From assembly GCA_022226955.1 (NCBI GenBank), contig CP092079.1, forward strand, positions 2,569,043 to 2,633,042: a DNA stretch of 64,000 bases, in the 5' to 3' direction. The position numbers and the translations under genes are program-made. The notes under the pieces were generated by a model. The model had not been told where the DNA came from, made no database searches, and saw only the letters and a program-made list of their open reading frames with translations. The DNA is from Nitrospira sp. (lineage in GTDB: Bacteria > Nitrospirota > Nitrospiria > Nitrospirales > Nitrospiraceae). This document shows positions 7,374-13,799 of this stretch, in pieces. Numbering within the stretch: position 1 is the first letter of the stretch; the number at the start of each line of letters is the position of its first letter.

Positions 7374-7527
7374 CCTGTTGTCCTGGCGGCTGCGCCGAAC
7401 ATATCCGCTAAAAGATCTTTCGGAAACTAAGTTTCTTGTTGGCGCTAAGGGGGCTGTGTGGTTAGGTATGGGGTCCGAGAAGGATGGGCCTTCGTATCGG
7501 ATAGACGATTTCTGGATGGAGGATAGC

Positions 7528-7974
7528 ATGAAGAAGACGGTCTCGATGATAATGGCGGTGGCCGTGTTTGCGGCTTATACCCAGGTGCTCGCGCAGGCGC
7601 CGGCGGCTGATCCGGCTGCGGTTCCTGCTCCGACTCCAGTCCCGGCTCCCGCTTCCCAAGCCACGCCACCGGCTTCTGCGCCGGCTTCGGCACCGGCCGT
7701 TGAAGGCGAGAAGAAGAAAGATCGTTACGAGGGGGAAGACGAGCAGGAAGGGAAGGGCAAAGGAAAGGGCAAGAGGAAAGGCAAAGGCAAGGGGCACGGA
7801 AAAGGGCATGGCAAGAAGCATGGCTTGGATCGGGCCGACGAAGCGGCCGGTGCGCACGGGAAGCACGGCCGTGACAATGCTCGGGGCCGCGGCAAGCATG
7901 GCGACCGTGAGAAGCACGGCGATCGCGACAAGCATGAGGAGACGGACAAGCACGAGGGCGGCGACAAGCAGTAA
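7528..7974 (+). CDS. Secreted Lys/Gly/His-rich low-complexity protein
   Basis: A 148-aa protein with a signal peptide (MKKTVSMIMAVAVFAAYTQ, then VLAQA). A Pro/Ala-rich linker of about 40 residues follows, then a strongly charged C-terminal half dominated by Lys-Gly, Gly-His and Lys-His repeats. The ATG at 7528 follows a clear GGAGGA Shine-Dalgarno. The upstream in-frame extension to 7357 lacks one and would bury the signal peptide. Periplasmic or secreted location is likely. The many His and Lys residues suggest metal, nucleic-acid or polyanion binding, but no domain is recognised. A terminator follows at 8013. Confidence 0.75.
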   Translation: MKKTVSMIMAVAVFAAYTQVLAQAPAADPAAVPAPTPVPAPASQATPPASAPASAPAVEGEKKKDRYEGEDEQEGKGKGKGKRKGKGKGHGKGHGKKHGLDRADEAAGAHGKHGRDNARGRGKHGDREKHGDRDKHEETDKHEGGDKQ

Positions 7975-8085: not shown

Positions 8086-8517
8086 CTAGACCGCAGGAAG
8101 GGTCAGGAGCTTTTTCATCTCGCAATGTGCCATGACGACTTCGGGAGCGCGCTGCAGCGCTTCATAGTAGCTGCGTTCAAATCCATCGCCCAATTCAGAG
8201 GGGCGGATCATGCCGCGGACCTCCGTGAGGATCTGCGCGACATCCTCCAGGGATAGGACGCACTCTCCATCCAGCAGCTCATCGATGCGGACCACCACAT
8301 TCGACAGCGGGTGCAGCCAGGTGAACCAGGGATCGTTCATGACGAGTTGCAGCAACTGGCCGGTCGAATCCACGCGGCCGTAGATCCGTTCGAACGTGAG
8401 CTGCTCCGCCACAATCAGGGCTTTGTGGAGCCCCAACAGTCCATGACGCACGTCGGTCAAGGTTCGCCGCAGTGGATCGGTTTTTTGTATTGCGGATGGT
8501 TGCGATGACGTAGCCAT
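8086..8517 (-). CDS. Conserved-looking hypothetical protein
   Basis: A 143-aa soluble, mainly helical protein without signal or membrane segment, not assigned to a named family. It has a regular pattern of amphipathic helices and a WFTWLHPLSNVVVRIDELLDG stretch in the middle. Codon use matches the chromosome. It starts with ATG at 8517, and upstream is a 120-bp gap to the next minus-strand gene. I recall similar proteins in Nitrospira-type genomes, but that is memory, not a comparison. Confidence 0.7.
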   Translation of the reverse strand: MATSSQPSAIQKTDPLRRTLTDVRHGLLGLHKALIVAEQLTFERIYGRVDSTGQLLQLVMNDPWFTWLHPLSNVVVRIDELLDGECVLSLEDVAQILTEVRGMIRPSELGDGFERSYYEALQRAPEVVMAHCEMKKLLTLPAV

Positions 8518-8639: not shown

Positions 8640-8954
8640 CTAGCGCCCGAATCGACCGGTTCCTTGTGGAGGAGGCTGGTACGGAGGGGCAGGGGTGGGG
8701 GATAGGGCGCGATTCGGATTGAAGGGGAGGACTGGCGCCGGAGTCAAACGATTGGGCGGCGGGGGAGTGCCGAAAGTGGAACGGTTCCCACTTTCAACCT
8801 CGCCAAGTGGTTGCCTATTCGGAGGGCCCTCCGTTCCCGGCTTGGCGATGGTGCCGTCTCGCTTGTGGATGGCGTCGTTCTCGGCCAAGCTGAGTCCTGC
8901 AAGCAGGATCAGACCTGCGGTGCCGACGGTGAGCGCTGCGAGGACTCGGTGCAT
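8640..8954 (-). CDS. Secreted proline-rich hypothetical protein
   Basis: A 104-aa protein with an N-terminal signal peptide (MHRVLAALTVGTAGLILLAG followed by LSLAEN). The mature part is rich in Pro, Asn, Gly and Arg with repeated PPPPNR and PAPP motifs and no folded domain. Probably periplasmic and unstructured. It lies just downstream of the NlpC/P60 gene on the same strand (79 bp), so it may be the last gene of that operon. Function unknown. Confidence 0.6.
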   Translation of the reverse strand: MHRVLAALTVGTAGLILLAGLSLAENDAIHKRDGTIAKPGTEGPPNRQPLGEVESGNRSTFGTPPPPNRLTPAPVLPFNPNRALSPTPAPPYQPPPQGTGRFGR

Positions 8955-9033
8955 CAGGACCTCATGGCCACCGTAGAATACGCGACGTCTCGATCGAATG
9001 TTCTGCCAGCATGTACTTGTTCAGCGGGAGACG

Positions 9034-9777
9034 TTATTGAGCCAGCCGAGTTCCATAGAATGTGAAGAGCTCGCCGGCCAGATGCCCCATCTCTTCCGGA
9101 TCGGTCGGCCGTTTGCGGCGGATGTAGTCGTTCACGGTGCGTCCGTCGGCGGTTTTATGGACGTGGGGGAGCGCCAGATTCATGCGGTAGCGTTGGATGG
9201 CTTCCGCGACGCGGCTGATAAATACCACCGTGCCGTCCGATTCGACCCGTTCCACCACGCCGACGTGGGTCAGCGGATCGTTCAACTTGCCGTCGCCGTT
9301 GAAGTCCCAAGTATTGTCGAAGAAGACCAGATCGCCGGGTTGCACCGCCGGGCCCTGGTGGATTCGTCCGTGCTGCCGTAGGTGGTTGTAGATCAGTCGA
9401 ACGCCGTTGGCCCGTCGATCTGCCGTGCTGCTGGCATATAGGTCGATGCCATGTTCGAGGAAAATAGCGCGGGTCACACCGGCGCAGTCATAGGCGACAC
9501 GCTTCCCGTTGCTTTCAATCAGTCTGGCGCCGAGGAGCGTGGTGGCTGTGTGGACGATTCCGGTTCTGGTGGCAGTGGAGGAAGGCGATTTCTGGACCGG
9601 CGTCACCTCGGAACGAGAGGTGGGTACGTGGACCGCCGGTGTGCTGGAGCAGCCGGCCAGCGCCATTGTGACGGCCGTTGTTCCGATAAGCGCGAGGCGC
9701 AGGCTTGGGTATGGCGAGCCTCCGAGTGAAGCGAGAACGTCGCGGGCGGATTGCTTCAGCACCCTGCTAGCGGACAT
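9034..9777 (-). CDS. NlpC/P60-family lipoprotein (putative cell-wall peptidase)
   Basis: A 247-aa outer- or inner-membrane lipoprotein: a lipobox LAGC (Cys at residue 43) follows a hydrophobic stretch, so the annotated N-terminus may be somewhat long. The C-terminal domain fits NlpC/P60 cysteine peptidases. YDCAGVTRA at 96-104 supplies the catalytic Cys (98), and LTHVGVVE supplies the catalytic His (171). A DFNGDGKLND loop just before it looks able to bind a metal. Such enzymes cut peptidoglycan peptide stems. The gene overlaps the end of the AAA+ ATPase gene by 11 bp, so the two are co-translated. Confidence 0.8.
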   Translation of the reverse strand: MSASRVLKQSARDVLASLGGSPYPSLRLALIGTTAVTMALAGCSSTPAVHVPTSRSEVTPVQKSPSSTATRTGIVHTATTLLGARLIESNGKRVAYDCAGVTRAIFLEHGIDLYASSTADRRANGVRLIYNHLRQHGRIHQGPAVQPGDLVFFDNTWDFNGDGKLNDPLTHVGVVERVESDGTVVFISRVAEAIQRYRMNLALPHVHKTADGRTVNDYIRRKRPTDPEEMGHLAGELFTFYGTRLAQ

Positions 9778-11329
9778 TCACGAAACGGCCCTGCGCCGTC
9801 TCCCTGAGTCGATCGATATCTTCCCGGCGTGTAACCGAGAGCGGCATCGTGTGGGTCAATTCCTCGATCAGTACATCGGTCGTGAGCGGTGTCTTTTGGT
9901 GAAGGGCCCGATACAAGGCGGCGACCACGGCCTGTTCGATCTCCGAGCCGCTGAAGCCGTCGCTGGCGCTGACAATTTTTACCAGATCGAACCGCGCGCG
10001 GTCTTGTTTGCGGAGTTCCAGGTGAATCTTCCAGATCGCTTCCCGCTCGCCGTCATCCGGCAGGTCGACGAAAAAGATTTCATCGAACCGGCCTTTGCGA
10101 AGAAGCTCCGGCGGCAGCAGCGCGAGATTATTGGCGGTCGCGATGACGAACACCTCCTGCTTCTTTTCCTGCAACCAGGTGAGAAATGCGCCGAAGAGCC
10201 GGCGGCTCAAGCCCGCGTCGGCCTCGCCGCTTCCGCCGCCCGCCGCCATGGCTTTCTCGATTTCATCGATCCAGAGCACGATGGGCGAGAGGGATTCGGC
10301 CATGTCGATCGCTTTGCGAAAATTCTTTTCCGATTCCCCGACGAACTTGTCGAACAGCCGGCCGGCATCCAGCTTGAGCAACGGGAGCTGCCATTCGCGC
10401 GCGATGGCTTTGGCTGCGAGCGATTTGCCGCAACCCGGCACGCCAACCAGCATGATGCCGCGCGGCGGAGTCAGGTTGAGCGCTTTGGCCTCGGCGGTGA
10501 ACCCGACTCGCGCGCGCTCCAGCCAGGACTTCAAATTCGTGAATCCGCCCAACTCGAACCGGTTGTCTTCAAGCGGGTAGTATTCCAGCAGTCCGCCGTC
10601 TTTGATGGCCTGTACCTTCCGCTTCAAGATCACCTGGATGTCGGCGGCGGACAATGTGCCGTCTTCGACGACGCATTGCGTGATGACTTGTCGGGCCTGG
10701 TGCAGAGTCAGCCCCCGCAGGGAGTGAAGAATCGCCTCGCGCCCCTCTGTTGAGAGACCGGCGTCGGCCGGCTTGGTTTCAGAGAGAGAGCCGAGGATGC
10801 TCTGTGCAATGGTTGTGGAGCGTGGCCGGCGAGGCGCGGTTCTGGTCCCGAGTGAGGAGAGGACGCTCCGGAGCATCGTGTGCAGCTCCGTGCGATCCGG
10901 CAATTGGAGATCGAGGCGGACCGCCATGGTTTCAAGATCCGGCGGCAGGATAATCGGATGTCCGGTCAGGATGCAGGTGGCTCTGGACCGGCTATAGGCG
11001 GCCGCCACTTCGCGCAATTGCCGGATGACGGCGGCGTCCTGCAAATGCGGGGCAAGATCTTTCAGCCAGAAGACTGCTTCGACGGTCAGGCCGTTCAGGT
11101 GTTGCAGCAGCGCCAGCGGAGTGGCCGTCATCTTGCTGAGGGAGGGGCCGTCGTCGGCGCGTGTGAGTCCTTTGGTGATGGACCATTCGAACAGCGGCAT
11201 GCGTTCTTGCGCCGCCACGGATTGCAGCAGGGCCAGCACGCGCTCCTCCTCGACCGTCTCGATCACGATCAGGGGATGGCAGGAGCGGATCAGGGTGCGG
11301 AGATCGTGGACGCTGGTCGCCAAGGCCAT
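9767..11329 (-). CDS. Ycf46-like AAA+ ATPase
   Basis: A 520-aa cytoplasmic protein. Residues 1-250 form an N-terminal region typical of Ycf46-type proteins (a degenerate P-loop-like domain starting HDLRTLIRSCHPLIVIET). The C-terminal AAA+ module has Walker A GVPGCGKS at 296-303, Walker B IVLWIDEIEKA near 350-360, sensor-1 IATANN near 396-401 and the arginine finger in RKGRFDE. The pore loop KFVGESEKN is also visible. The family is widespread in cyanobacteria and plastids with a poorly defined role. Position between a SUMF1-fold gene and an NlpC/P60 lipoprotein gene suggests a shared envelope-linked task. Confidence 0.88.
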   Translation of the reverse strand: MALATSVHDLRTLIRSCHPLIVIETVEEERVLALLQSVAAQERMPLFEWSITKGLTRADDGPSLSKMTATPLALLQHLNGLTVEAVFWLKDLAPHLQDAAVIRQLREVAAAYSRSRATCILTGHPIILPPDLETMAVRLDLQLPDRTELHTMLRSVLSSLGTRTAPRRPRSTTIAQSILGSLSETKPADAGLSTEGREAILHSLRGLTLHQARQVITQCVVEDGTLSAADIQVILKRKVQAIKDGGLLEYYPLEDNRFELGGFTNLKSWLERARVGFTAEAKALNLTPPRGIMLVGVPGCGKSLAAKAIAREWQLPLLKLDAGRLFDKFVGESEKNFRKAIDMAESLSPIVLWIDEIEKAMAAGGGSGEADAGLSRRLFGAFLTWLQEKKQEVFVIATANNLALLPPELLRKGRFDEIFFVDLPDDGEREAIWKIHLELRKQDRARFDLVKIVSASDGFSGSEIEQAVVAALYRALHQKTPLTTDVLIEELTHTMPLSVTRREDIDRLRETAQGRFVNVR

Positions 11330-11382
11330 AAGAACGCCATGCTAGCACGTGAGGGGCGCGCCACCAAGAGAACGGATGTTTG

Positions 11383-12288
11383 CTACTTGGAATCGGGCGC
11401 CGGTTCCGGTGTCGATTTCGCGCAGCGAAAACCGATTGTCGCTGAGCCTTGTGCCGGGAGCGAGCCGCTGCGAGTGGCAGTGCGGAGCATGATCACTTTG
11501 CTTTTCCACGATCCACCGCGGACACTCCGGTAGCGGCCGCTTGTCGGCCCAGGCGGATTTTTTTCTGTCATGTAGGCGTAGTAATCGAAGCCGAACCAGT
11601 CCTGTACCCACTCGGCGACGTTGCCGGCCATATGATGCAATCCATAGGGGCTGCGCCCGTCCTCCAGCGAATCGACCGGGGCAAGGATTGGAATCTCATG
11701 CACGTGATGTTGCCCGAACATCGCCAGGTTTGAGTTGGGAGCCGTTTCTCCCCAAGGGAACAGGCTTCCCTCCGTTCCACGCGCCGCCTTTTCCCATTCG
11801 GCTTCAGTGGGGAGCCGCTTGCCTGCGGCATGGCACAGGTCCTGCGCGTCTTTCCACGTGACGTAGAGCGCCGGCCAGCGCGAGAGGGTCTTATCGGTGA
11901 CGGAATGGACGGTGATGACATGCCAGATCAATTTCTGCAGCTCGCCGGAGGGCGGGGTTTTTCGCTGTTGCAGGAAGGCAAGATATTCTCCCAGACTGAC
12001 TTCATCGCGATCCATCTCGAAGGCATCGAGCCAAATACGATTTTGCGGGAGTTCGGTATTGTCGAACTGTGTCCCGATGCCGTAGGGATCATCGTCGATG
12101 CGGTTGCTTCCGAGGAGAAATGAACTGGCGGGAATTGTAATCAGGGGCGCCGGTTTTGCCAGGGCTGCAATGTTCGCGAGGTGGCGGGCCAATTCCTGCG
12201 ATGGTTTGGGCGCGGGGGTAGCGCCCGATGCCGTGGTCGAGAGGGCGAAGAGGAGGAGAGTTGTGGAGAGCAGGCGAAGAGCTGGCAT
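11383..12288 (-). CDS. SUMF1/FGE-fold exported protein
   Basis: A 301-aa protein with a signal peptide (MPALRLLSTTLLLFALSTTASGA). One formylglycine-generating-enzyme-like domain follows: ITIPASSFLLGS near the start, then RLPTEAEWEKAARG, HHMAGNVAEWVQDWF and the C-terminal RSVRGGSW and GFRCAK signatures. In true FGE enzymes two Cys residues follow the GGS motif. Here the equivalent stretch (GGSWKSKVIMLRTATR) has none, so formylglycine synthesis is unlikely and a binding or structural role is more plausible. Its ATG shares a base with the stop of the upstream lipoprotein gene. Confidence 0.85.
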   Translation of the reverse strand: MPALRLLSTTLLLFALSTTASGATPAPKPSQELARHLANIAALAKPAPLITIPASSFLLGSNRIDDDPYGIGTQFDNTELPQNRIWLDAFEMDRDEVSLGEYLAFLQQRKTPPSGELQKLIWHVITVHSVTDKTLSRWPALYVTWKDAQDLCHAAGKRLPTEAEWEKAARGTEGSLFPWGETAPNSNLAMFGQHHVHEIPILAPVDSLEDGRSPYGLHHMAGNVAEWVQDWFGFDYYAYMTEKNPPGPTSGRYRSVRGGSWKSKVIMLRTATRSGSLPAQGSATIGFRCAKSTPEPAPDSK

Positions 12289-13037
12289 CAGGTCTTGCCC
12301 GGAGCTTCCAACGCTTTGTGGATTTCCCCGATCAGGCGCCGTTCGATCTCCGCGGTCTCTTCCTGGCTCACGCTCAGAATGCGTCCGCCCTGCGCGACCT
12401 TCTCAAACTCGGCACGGACGCCGAGCCTGGTCGTATTGGCGGGAAGGGCTTGCAGGGTGATGAGGTACTGATTGCGAAAGCCGGCCACTTCGAGCGAGGC
12501 AGGATTCGAGATCTTGCGTTCAGTCACGTAGACCGCCTTCTGATCGCTTTTGAAGCTGACCTTGATGGGATAGCCGTTCTTGGCCAGCGAGTCTTCGACG
12601 ATTTTGGAGACGGCCGCCAGCGGCCGCGGCAGCGTCTCGATTTGCGCGCCCTTCTCCTCAATGCGCAGTTGTTGCGCTGCCTGCGCCGCGGCGGTTTTGA
12701 CGGCCTCGGCACTCGCGCGTTTCGCTTGGACGAGCTGCGCATTCAGTTGATCGGTCAGCTGGCCCATCTCGGCCTTGGCCGATCCCGTGGCCTTCTTCGC
12801 ATCGCGCAGTTCCTGATTCAGCAGATCGATCTGCTGCTGCATGACCTTGTTGCCGTCCTGCAAGGACGAGAGGAGAGATTCCTGCTTCGTCACCTGTTTT
12901 TTCAAGGCTTCGTTCTCAGCCTTGAAGGGTGAATCGTCGGGCTTGCATCCGGCGGTCGTCAGACCCCAAGCCAGCAGGCCGATCCATGCCATATTGGAAA
13001 ACGTCGTTGCTACGCGCCACTCCCTGTGAATCTTCAT
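12288..13037 (-). CDS. Coiled-coil lipoprotein
   Basis: A 249-aa protein with a hydrophobic N-terminal segment ending in a lipobox-like TAGC (Cys near residue 31). A long coiled coil (residues ~38-130, many Gln/Lys/Glu heptads) follows, and a C-terminal ~100-residue globular part with a predicted mixed alpha/beta pattern. No named family is recognised. First gene of a minus-strand operon followed by the SUMF1-fold, AAA+ and NlpC/P60 genes. Its stop is coupled to the next ATG. Probably an envelope scaffold or adaptor for that system. Confidence 0.72.
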   Translation of the reverse strand: MKIHREWRVATTFSNMAWIGLLAWGLTTAGCKPDDSPFKAENEALKKQVTKQESLLSSLQDGNKVMQQQIDLLNQELRDAKKATGSAKAEMGQLTDQLNAQLVQAKRASAEAVKTAAAQAAQQLRIEEKGAQIETLPRPLAAVSKIVEDSLAKNGYPIKVSFKSDQKAVYVTERKISNPASLEVAGFRNQYLITLQALPANTTRLGVRAEFEKVAQGGRILSVSQEETAEIERRLIGEIHKALEAPGKT

Positions 13038-13139
13038 CCGGCGATTATCTACGGTTCACGCGAGGTTGTCCACGCGGATTTGCTGGCGGATGGAGCGGTC
13101 GAATTGACCGGTCTTCGGCCTGGCGGCTATGCTGCAGGC

Positions 13140-13799
13140 ATGCACCGTACGATTGTTCTGTTGCTGACTCTGTTGAGCGTCGCGATGACGTGGCCGGCCG
13201 TTGGATCGGCTGGGGAGGGGACTGTCGCCGCGATTCCGCTCGAAGACTATGCGCGCTACGATCAGATTGTCGCAAGCAAGTTTCTCAGCTCAGAGACGCA
13301 GCTGGTATTGCTCGAACGCAAGACCGCGACGCAGATCTCGCCGGAGCAAGAAGGACCGCTGACAGCGGAGTGGTTCCATAAACAGGGATACTTCGATGGC
13401 ACATTGCCCGCCGAACTGATCCACGACTTCGTCGCGGTCAATCAGGATGCTGTCAGGCTGGAGGGGCGGTTTCAGTTCGGGACGCGCTATCGCTTCGTCT
13501 CCGGCAATGCCGTCGAAGAGCCGGAAGTATCGCTGGCGCGGCCGGCTTTTGTGGCCTGGGTCAAACCGGTGCAGGCCTTGCCGGTGCTGGACCGGCTGGT
13601 GTTTTCCCGCATGGGATACAATCTCCGCCAAACCCAAGCCTTGGCCTATGTCGGCAATCCGCGTCCCGATGGTTCTGGCGCCGGGTTTCTCGTATGGCTC
13701 AAGCGGCAAGGAACCGCCTGGTCGATTTGGGACACGGAAGTGATCTGGACGGTCCGTATCGAGCCAGAGTTGGATGGCGGGCCGCTGCTTGCACCGTGA
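13140..13799 (+). CDS. Exported hypothetical protein
   Basis: A 219-aa protein with a signal peptide (MHRTIVLLLTLLSVAMTW, ending near VGSAGEG). The mature region is soluble, with mixed strands and helices and no recognised motif. The frame continues upstream to 13026, overlapping the divergent lipoprotein gene start. The ATG at 13140 gives a proper signal peptide and is preferred. It is divergent from the coiled-coil lipoprotein operon. Followed by the palindromic repeat. Confidence 0.7.
   Translation: MHRTIVLLLTLLSVAMTWPAVGSAGEGTVAAIPLEDYARYDQIVASKFLSSETQLVLLERKTATQISPEQEGPLTAEWFHKQGYFDGTLPAELIHDFVAVNQDAVRLEGRFQFGTRYRFVSGNAVEEPEVSLARPAFVAWVKPVQALPVLDRLVFSRMGYNLRQTQALAYVGNPRPDGSGAGFLVWLKRQGTAWSIWDTEVIWTVRIEPELDGGPLLAP

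Follow-up and report, generated by a model that had tools for sequence, protein, structure and literature searches.

Ycf46-like ATPases and a Nitrospira gene cluster

Ycf46 (Slr0374), a protein of cyanobacteria and red-algal plastids, is ∼500 aa in length with one live AAA domain. An AAA+ ATPase that is similar in size and also has one live AAA domain, and that may by analogy be of the Ycf46 kind, is encoded in a 64 000-nucleotide stretch of Nitrospira DNA. This stretch, termed the window, is part of one 3.6-Mb contig whose nearest named relatives are Nitrospira. In Synechocystis, ycf46 is described as part of a stress operon, with iron and sulphur deficiency among the inducing stresses, and its loss as lowering the activity of the carbonic anhydrase EcaB (PMC7496141). 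A second paper places DUF2997, ycf35 (DUF1257) and fed7 of Synechocystis in one gene cluster (PMC4284462). A search of literature outside subscription papers found none joining ycf46, ycf35 and AAA ATPase.

In the window, the ATPase gene (AAA) lies among genes for a coiled-coil lipoprotein (Lipo), an FGE-fold protein (SUMF) and an NlpC/P60-CHAP lipoprotein (NlpC). It appears probable that the cluster combines, in one transcription unit, an exported wall/outer-membrane module formed by Lipo, SUMF and NlpC with a self-contained cytosolic cassette, the p97-like AAA+ ATPase. The latter is regarded as a cassette because AAA is lost or moved in genomes where the other genes stay, and is found elsewhere without them. 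The four genes are:

12288..13037, minus strand: Lipo, lipoprotein (Cys31) with a near-invariant coiled coil at ∼37–123 and a predicted C-terminal BamC/Flpp3-like helix-grip domain at ∼128–249
11383..12288, minus strand: SUMF, FGE-sulfatase-fold protein, predicted to be exported, that lacks the two catalytic cysteines
9767..11329, minus strand: AAA, p97-like AAA+ ATPase of the PHROG 8638/Ycf46-like kind
9034..9777, minus strand: NlpC, NlpC/P60-CHAP lipoprotein with invariant Cys98 and His171 and an EF-hand-like loop, D158–D167

A first-pass annotation of this DNA had described the four genes, with the SUMF product already noted as lacking its Cys pair, as one operon with coupled stops and starts, and had placed a gene for a Pro-rich exported protein at its end. 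All five open reading frames are indeed present on the minus strand. Coupling is found at two junctions: the TGA of Lipo and the ATG of SUMF overlap by 1 nt (TGATG), and the 5′ end of NlpC and the AAA stop share an 11-nt overlap. The spacing is 53 nt between SUMF and AAA and 79 nt between NlpC and the Pro-rich gene. The five-gene stretch is an operon-like cluster, and we infer that it is co-transcribed.

Conservation of the cluster in the Nitrospiraceae

The cluster was surveyed in 120 Nitrospiraceae genomes that are at least 90% complete. Presence was scored at E-values of 1e-60 for AAA and SUMF, 1e-20 for NlpC and 1e-10 for Lipo, and genes on the same strand with gaps of less than 2.5 kb were taken as clustered. 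SUMF is present in 114 genomes, Lipo and NlpC in 105 each and AAA in 78. All four genes are clustered in 19/120 genomes. A further 28 have Lipo, AAA and NlpC clustered and SUMF elsewhere; 20, all of one genus (g11), have a Lipo–SUMF cluster, with AAA and NlpC each at a separate site. AAA is apart from the other three genes in every one of the 20 AAA-bearing g11 genomes. Genomes without AAA display Lipo–SUMF–NlpC clusters (seven genomes) or Lipo–NlpC clusters (nine genomes), and the remaining genomes have scattered patterns. The conserved co-occurrence of the four families that had been anticipated thus holds in part: they are neighbours in many close relatives but do not form a conserved unit, as the full cluster is confined to the 19 genomes and AAA stands apart throughout its g11 carriers.

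Among the 42 genomes that lack AAA at 1e-60, SUMF is retained in 37, NlpC in 29 and Lipo in 28. Lipo and NlpC are within 2.5 kb of one another in 16 of the 42. At nine of these 16 loci there is no SUMF between the two genes, and the gap of 145–817 bp is too short to hold AAA. AAA is dispensable to the module, and the suggestion that the neighbours supply a function for the ATPase is not supported.

For genomes that have both members of a pair, Lipo–AAA are clustered in 52/77, AAA–NlpC in 52/76 and SUMF–AAA in 23/77. The pairs without AAA give 56/101 (Lipo–SUMF), 45/100 (Lipo–NlpC) and 29/102 (SUMF–NlpC). A second sample consists of 80 related Nitrospira loci, 59 of which extend 3 kb or more to either side of AAA. 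In these 59, AAA is flanked by Lipo and NlpC in 25, by all three genes in 11 and by none in 13; single neighbours are Lipo (five loci), NlpC (three) or SUMF (two). Gene order within the lineage is beyond chance, as the Lipo–AAA count illustrates. Linkage of these genes in the family is thus genuine and old, although AAA is only loosely tied in.

The surroundings of AAA vary in other ways. In the Nitrospira defluvii type (L043, 6858–7718 and 9747–11582; L016), the displaced AAA adjoins a DnaJ–ERCC4 fusion protein and a TPR protein. In the deep family members L076 (4717–9491) and L083, a DUF2062 protein and a DUF748/AsmA-like protein are found between SUMF and AAA, and the opposite-strand genes that follow AAA read like glutamate synthase, a name given from reading the sequence.

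The ATPase

The AAA protein matches the Pfam AAA domain with E=6.6e-32. Its C-terminal AAA domain is intact, with Walker A at 296–303, Walker B at 351–356 and the conserved residues N400, R411 and R414. In 25 diverse aligned rows the catalytic residues are invariant in the C-terminal half only, and the Walker A pattern GxxxxGK[ST] does not occur among the N-terminal columns. Residues 4–520 of the structural model align with p97 residues 210–768, which encompass D1 and D2 (Z 22.9; root mean square deviation, rmsd, 19.1 over 446 residues). This rmsd arises because the two halves are differently oriented; the C-terminal half alone aligns with p97 D2 with Z 22.4 and rmsd 2.8 over 248 residues. Like p97/Cdc48 (and Vps4), AAA has the full set of catalytic motifs in its C-terminal AAA domain, and its predicted model has the same overall D1–D2 layout. 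It differs from p97/Cdc48 in that the first AAA domain has no Walker A, and from p97 in having no N-domain, the alignment starting at p97 residue ∼210.

Full-length homologues of AAA are found on cyanobacterial plasmids (36–37% over 97–98% of the sequence), which is consistent with a Ycf46 kind. Unlike Ycf46, the Nitrospira AAA has no neighbouring Ycf35 (DUF1257). Residues 7–515 match the phage proteins of PHROG 8638, whose function is unknown, over their full length (E 5.9e-119); AAA differs from these in being chromosomal in Nitrospira and in having different neighbours. PHROG 8638 is also matched in 14/14 control genomes, which is ascribed to the AAA domain, so the profile is no test of presence. 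An identity as the anti-phage ATPase IetA/IteA was rejected, as the score of 91.6 bits is below the NCBIfam cut-off of 510 and the AAA domain alone matches.

No signal peptide or membrane segment was seen on inspection of the AAA sequence by eye. AAA is predicted to be cytosolic, and Lipo, SUMF and NlpC to be exported. The interaction between AAA and the lipoprotein put forward in the first-pass annotation appears unlikely from these sequence features, since Lipo is exported and AAA displays neither type of segment.

The envelope proteins

Lipo has a lipobox cysteine, Cys31, that does not vary in 20 aligned rows, and its coiled coil (∼37–123) is almost invariant across them. The model of the C-terminal domain matches the BamC N-domain with Z 13.1 (109 residues aligned, rmsd 2.7) and Flpp3 with Z 12.4 (95 residues aligned, rmsd 2.2), and START-like folds score lower (Z near 9–10). 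A PDB sequence search with the Lipo profile gave nothing useful. As modelled, Lipo is a lipoprotein with a helix-grip domain, like BamC of the BAM complex and Francisella Flpp3. It differs from BamC in having one such domain, not two, and a long coiled coil instead.

SUMF matches PF03781, FGE-sulfatase, with E=5.6e-45 (154.4 bits vs a cut-off of 23.3), and shares the FGE fold with FGE (SUMF1) and with the FGE-fold lipoprotein PorK/GldK. The FGE cysteine pair, Cys336/Cys341 in the human enzyme, is absent both from the window protein and from 11/11 aligned rows; the stretch aligned to this site reads KSKVIML. SUMF differs from FGE (SUMF1) in this loss of the catalytic cysteines, and a role as a sulfatase-activating enzyme is rejected on this ground. 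A role as GldK/PorK of the type IX secretion system is likewise rejected, as the score is 89.7 bits, far under the NCBIfam equivalog cut-off of 350.

NlpC is narrowly above the curated cut-offs for both CHAP (E=6.7e-6, 26.9 vs 26 bits) and NLPC_P60 (6.8e-5, 23.2 vs 23). It too is a lipoprotein (LAGC, Cys43), a point that had been overlooked. Cys98, His171 and D158-N160-D162-G163-N166-D167 are invariant in 13 rows, and the loop has the invariant pattern D-x-N-x-D-G-x-x-N-D. Judging by its likeness to EF-hand motifs, this loop probably binds calcium. NlpC resembles NlpC/P60 and CHAP hydrolases in its Cys-His motif and differs from them in the EF-hand-like insert before the His and in having only two recognised catalytic residues. 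The start of the protein is uncertain, as relatives mostly begin ∼25 residues later and there is an in-frame GTG at 9762.

A proposed mechanism and the arguments against it

Lipo would probably be anchored in the outer membrane, with its long coiled coil extending into the periplasm and ending in the BamC-like domain. SUMF may serve as a non-catalytic periplasmic scaffold of the FGE fold, and NlpC would be a lipid-anchored NlpC/CHAP hydrolase whose loop probably binds calcium. Jointly, these proteins would most likely keep a peptidoglycan hydrolase in place and under control where the outer membrane meets the wall. AAA, on the other side, would be a cytosolic p97-like unfoldase, probably hexameric, in which the first AAA ring is dead and the second is live, and would act on its own cytosolic substrate. 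It may have been inherited or inserted as a cassette that was repeatedly lost or moved and left the envelope module intact.

Several points weigh against this proposal. Of the 78 AAA-bearing genomes, 77 have Lipo and 76 have NlpC, and both are rarer in genomes without AAA (28 and 29/42; Fisher p 9e-7 and 2e-5, with no correction for ancestry). AAA and NlpC are within 2.5 kb in 52 genomes and are often ≤10 nt apart or overlap, and SUMF is upstream of AAA also in deep family members (L076, L083, L232–L234). This close spacing and the deep SUMF–AAA order mean that the linkage is old, and co-expression may have been selected for. The structural models are of moderate confidence for both AAA (predicted local distance difference test, pLDDT, 67.8; predicted template modelling score, pTM, 0.43) and Lipo (pLDDT 72.1, pTM 0.42). 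A search for sequence similarity between Lipo and BamC found none, and the NlpC profile has no match among PDB chains at E 0.01.

An alternative, in line with the first-pass annotation, is that the cluster is a single envelope-biogenesis machine and the operon its functional unit; AAA would then act in the cytosol on lipoprotein or hydrolase precursors that are yet to be exported, or on an inner-membrane partner. Such a machine would fit genes that are close or overlapping, the adjacency of Lipo and AAA in 52/77 genomes and the finding of AAA without Lipo anywhere in the genome in only 1/78, a count confounded by shared ancestry. It is nevertheless considered unlikely, as AAA is lost or moved while the other genes stay, and members of the AAA family occur in phages, on plasmids and in other phyla where none of these three is their neighbour. 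An exported module that shares its operon with a separate ATPase cassette remains the preferred explanation.

Relatives of the ATPase in viruses, plasmids and other Nitrospirota

Full-length relatives of AAA are present in 61 plasmid records with at least 80% coverage and in 37 phages, and 464 stretches of viral contigs encode relatives. The best 80 of the 464 viral stretches were analysed together with 21 plasmid/phage loci, giving 101 loci. Of 295 sampled Nitrospirota genomes, 84 match AAA at 1e-35; 20 loci were fetched from these, three of which are from Nitrospiraceae and 17 from outside the family. Neither Lipo nor NlpC is found near AAA in any of the 17, one of which has a distant SUMF-like gene (32%), and Lipo, SUMF and NlpC are all absent near AAA in the 101 viral, plasmid and phage loci. 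Outside the Nitrospiraceae the ATPase thus has other neighbours, which again speaks against deriving its function from the Nitrospira operon.

These other neighbours are recurrent. In profile searches, DUF1257 and/or DUF2997 are found beside AAA in 39/80 viral and 13/21 plasmid/phage loci. Both profiles are absent from 79 control viral loci, fetched with FGE-fold relatives since a metallo-hydrolase query gave only one viral-contig locus. The viral DUF matches are all on the AAA strand (35/35 and 34/34), with median gaps of 1185 and 893 bp. Clustering of all open reading frames ≤4 kb from AAA in the 101 loci, in which the DUF profiles were not used, gave two top neighbour families with 44 and 40 loci, whose example members are DUF2997 and DUF1257 proteins; both are tagged DUF1257 because the first also contains an open reading frame that matches this profile. 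A Fer4_12/radical-SAM family, with its Pfam name from two examples, is the sixth cluster (16 loci). A viral protein (L108) has a C-terminal DUF2997 and an N-terminal half that is DUF1257-like by eye, with no DUF1257 call by Pfam. The view that the AAA protein has no known partner overlooks these DUF1257, DUF2997 and Fer4_12/radical-SAM neighbours.

The situation in Nitrospira is different: the DUF profiles match 3/20 deep Nitrospirota AAA loci and 0/80 Nitrospira loci. DUF1257 (PF06868) is over the cut-off in 0/39 Nitrospira-related genomes, with one weak match, and in 1/14 control genomes, that of Synechococcus elongatus. DUF1257 as a hidden partner elsewhere in the Nitrospira genomes is rejected on the former count. 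In a quick FastTree phylogeny (132 rows, unrooted, with a long-branch warning, and from which no direction of gain or loss is inferred), the Nitrospiraceae proteins form one clade beside other Nitrospirota AAA proteins without DUF neighbours. The Nitrospirota group in turn sits beside a group that includes actinobacterial plasmid and viral rows with DUF neighbours (support 91).

Two further observations concern plasmid and phage loci. The closest plasmid relative of AAA (40%), on a Treponema plasmid (L086), has a Fer4_12 protein on one side and a phage baseplate V protein on the other. Relatives from a Streptococcus satellite phage and two proteobacterial plasmids (L090, L099, L101) form one clade, and the two plasmids have a similar upstream run of open reading frames, as judged by size.

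Another reading is that the Nitrospira AAA was domesticated from a mobile AAA–DUF1257–DUF2997–Fe/S module and its partners were lost or replaced; its substrate would be an iron-sulphur or stress-related protein. The enrichment of the DUF genes in viral and plasmid/phage loci over the controls, the lack of DUF1257 in the Nitrospira-related genomes and the position of the Nitrospirota clade beside a DUF-bearing one are all in keeping with this, as is the hint from the Synechocystis ycf46 operon, reported to respond to iron and sulphur deficiency (PMC7496141). This origin is thought to be decidedly improbable, given that no Nitrospira locus has a DUF neighbour, that 41/80 viral relatives also have none, and that the tree gives neither root nor direction of change. 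AAA as an obligate partner of Lipo is rejected in view of the losses, the displacement and the family loci without Lipo.

For the AAA family as a whole, DUF1257 (Ycf35) and DUF2997 are a better partner lead than the envelope neighbours in Nitrospira. Tentatively, and with rather less assurance, the Ycf46-type ATPases found in viruses, on plasmids and in chromosomes might constitute one family whose working partners are Ycf35 (DUF1257), DUF2997 and a small iron-sulphur protein of the Fer4_12/radical-SAM type. On this view Ycf46 and Ycf35 would belong to a single ATP-driven, iron-sulphur-linked machine, which phages carry as well, and the Nitrospira version would have lost its partners to end up as a passenger in an envelope operon.

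Flanking features

Other features at or near the cluster are:

8640..8954, minus strand: Pro-rich exported protein, weakly conserved (5/80 related loci)
8086..8517, minus strand: conserved 143-aa protein encoded further downstream in the same direction, perhaps by the last gene
13044..13072, minus strand: promoter-like site just before Lipo, TGGACA-17-GATAAT, a consensus match only

Three promoter-like sites are found in the region vs 1.1 expected from shuffles. The 143-aa protein has no match in Pfam or NCBIfam and is encoded near AAA, on the same strand, in 54/80 related loci. Divergent from Lipo, at 13140–13799 on the plus strand, is a gene for an exported-looking protein with no Pfam match that is retained in 38/80 related loci. 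At 7426–7974, also on the plus strand, lies a gene for an exported-looking protein of low complexity that is rich in Lys/Gly/His and has Pro/Ala repeats; it is found in 11/80.

Significance

Guilt by association within one genus would misassign the function of a widespread ATPase family. The survey of viruses and plasmids leads instead to a specific partner set, DUF1257/Ycf35 and DUF2997, and this bears on two plastid genes of unknown function. The Nitrospira operon is also of interest as an uncharacterised envelope module, with a predicted BamC-like coiled-coil lipoprotein and an NlpC/CHAP lipoprotein that has an EF-hand-like loop.

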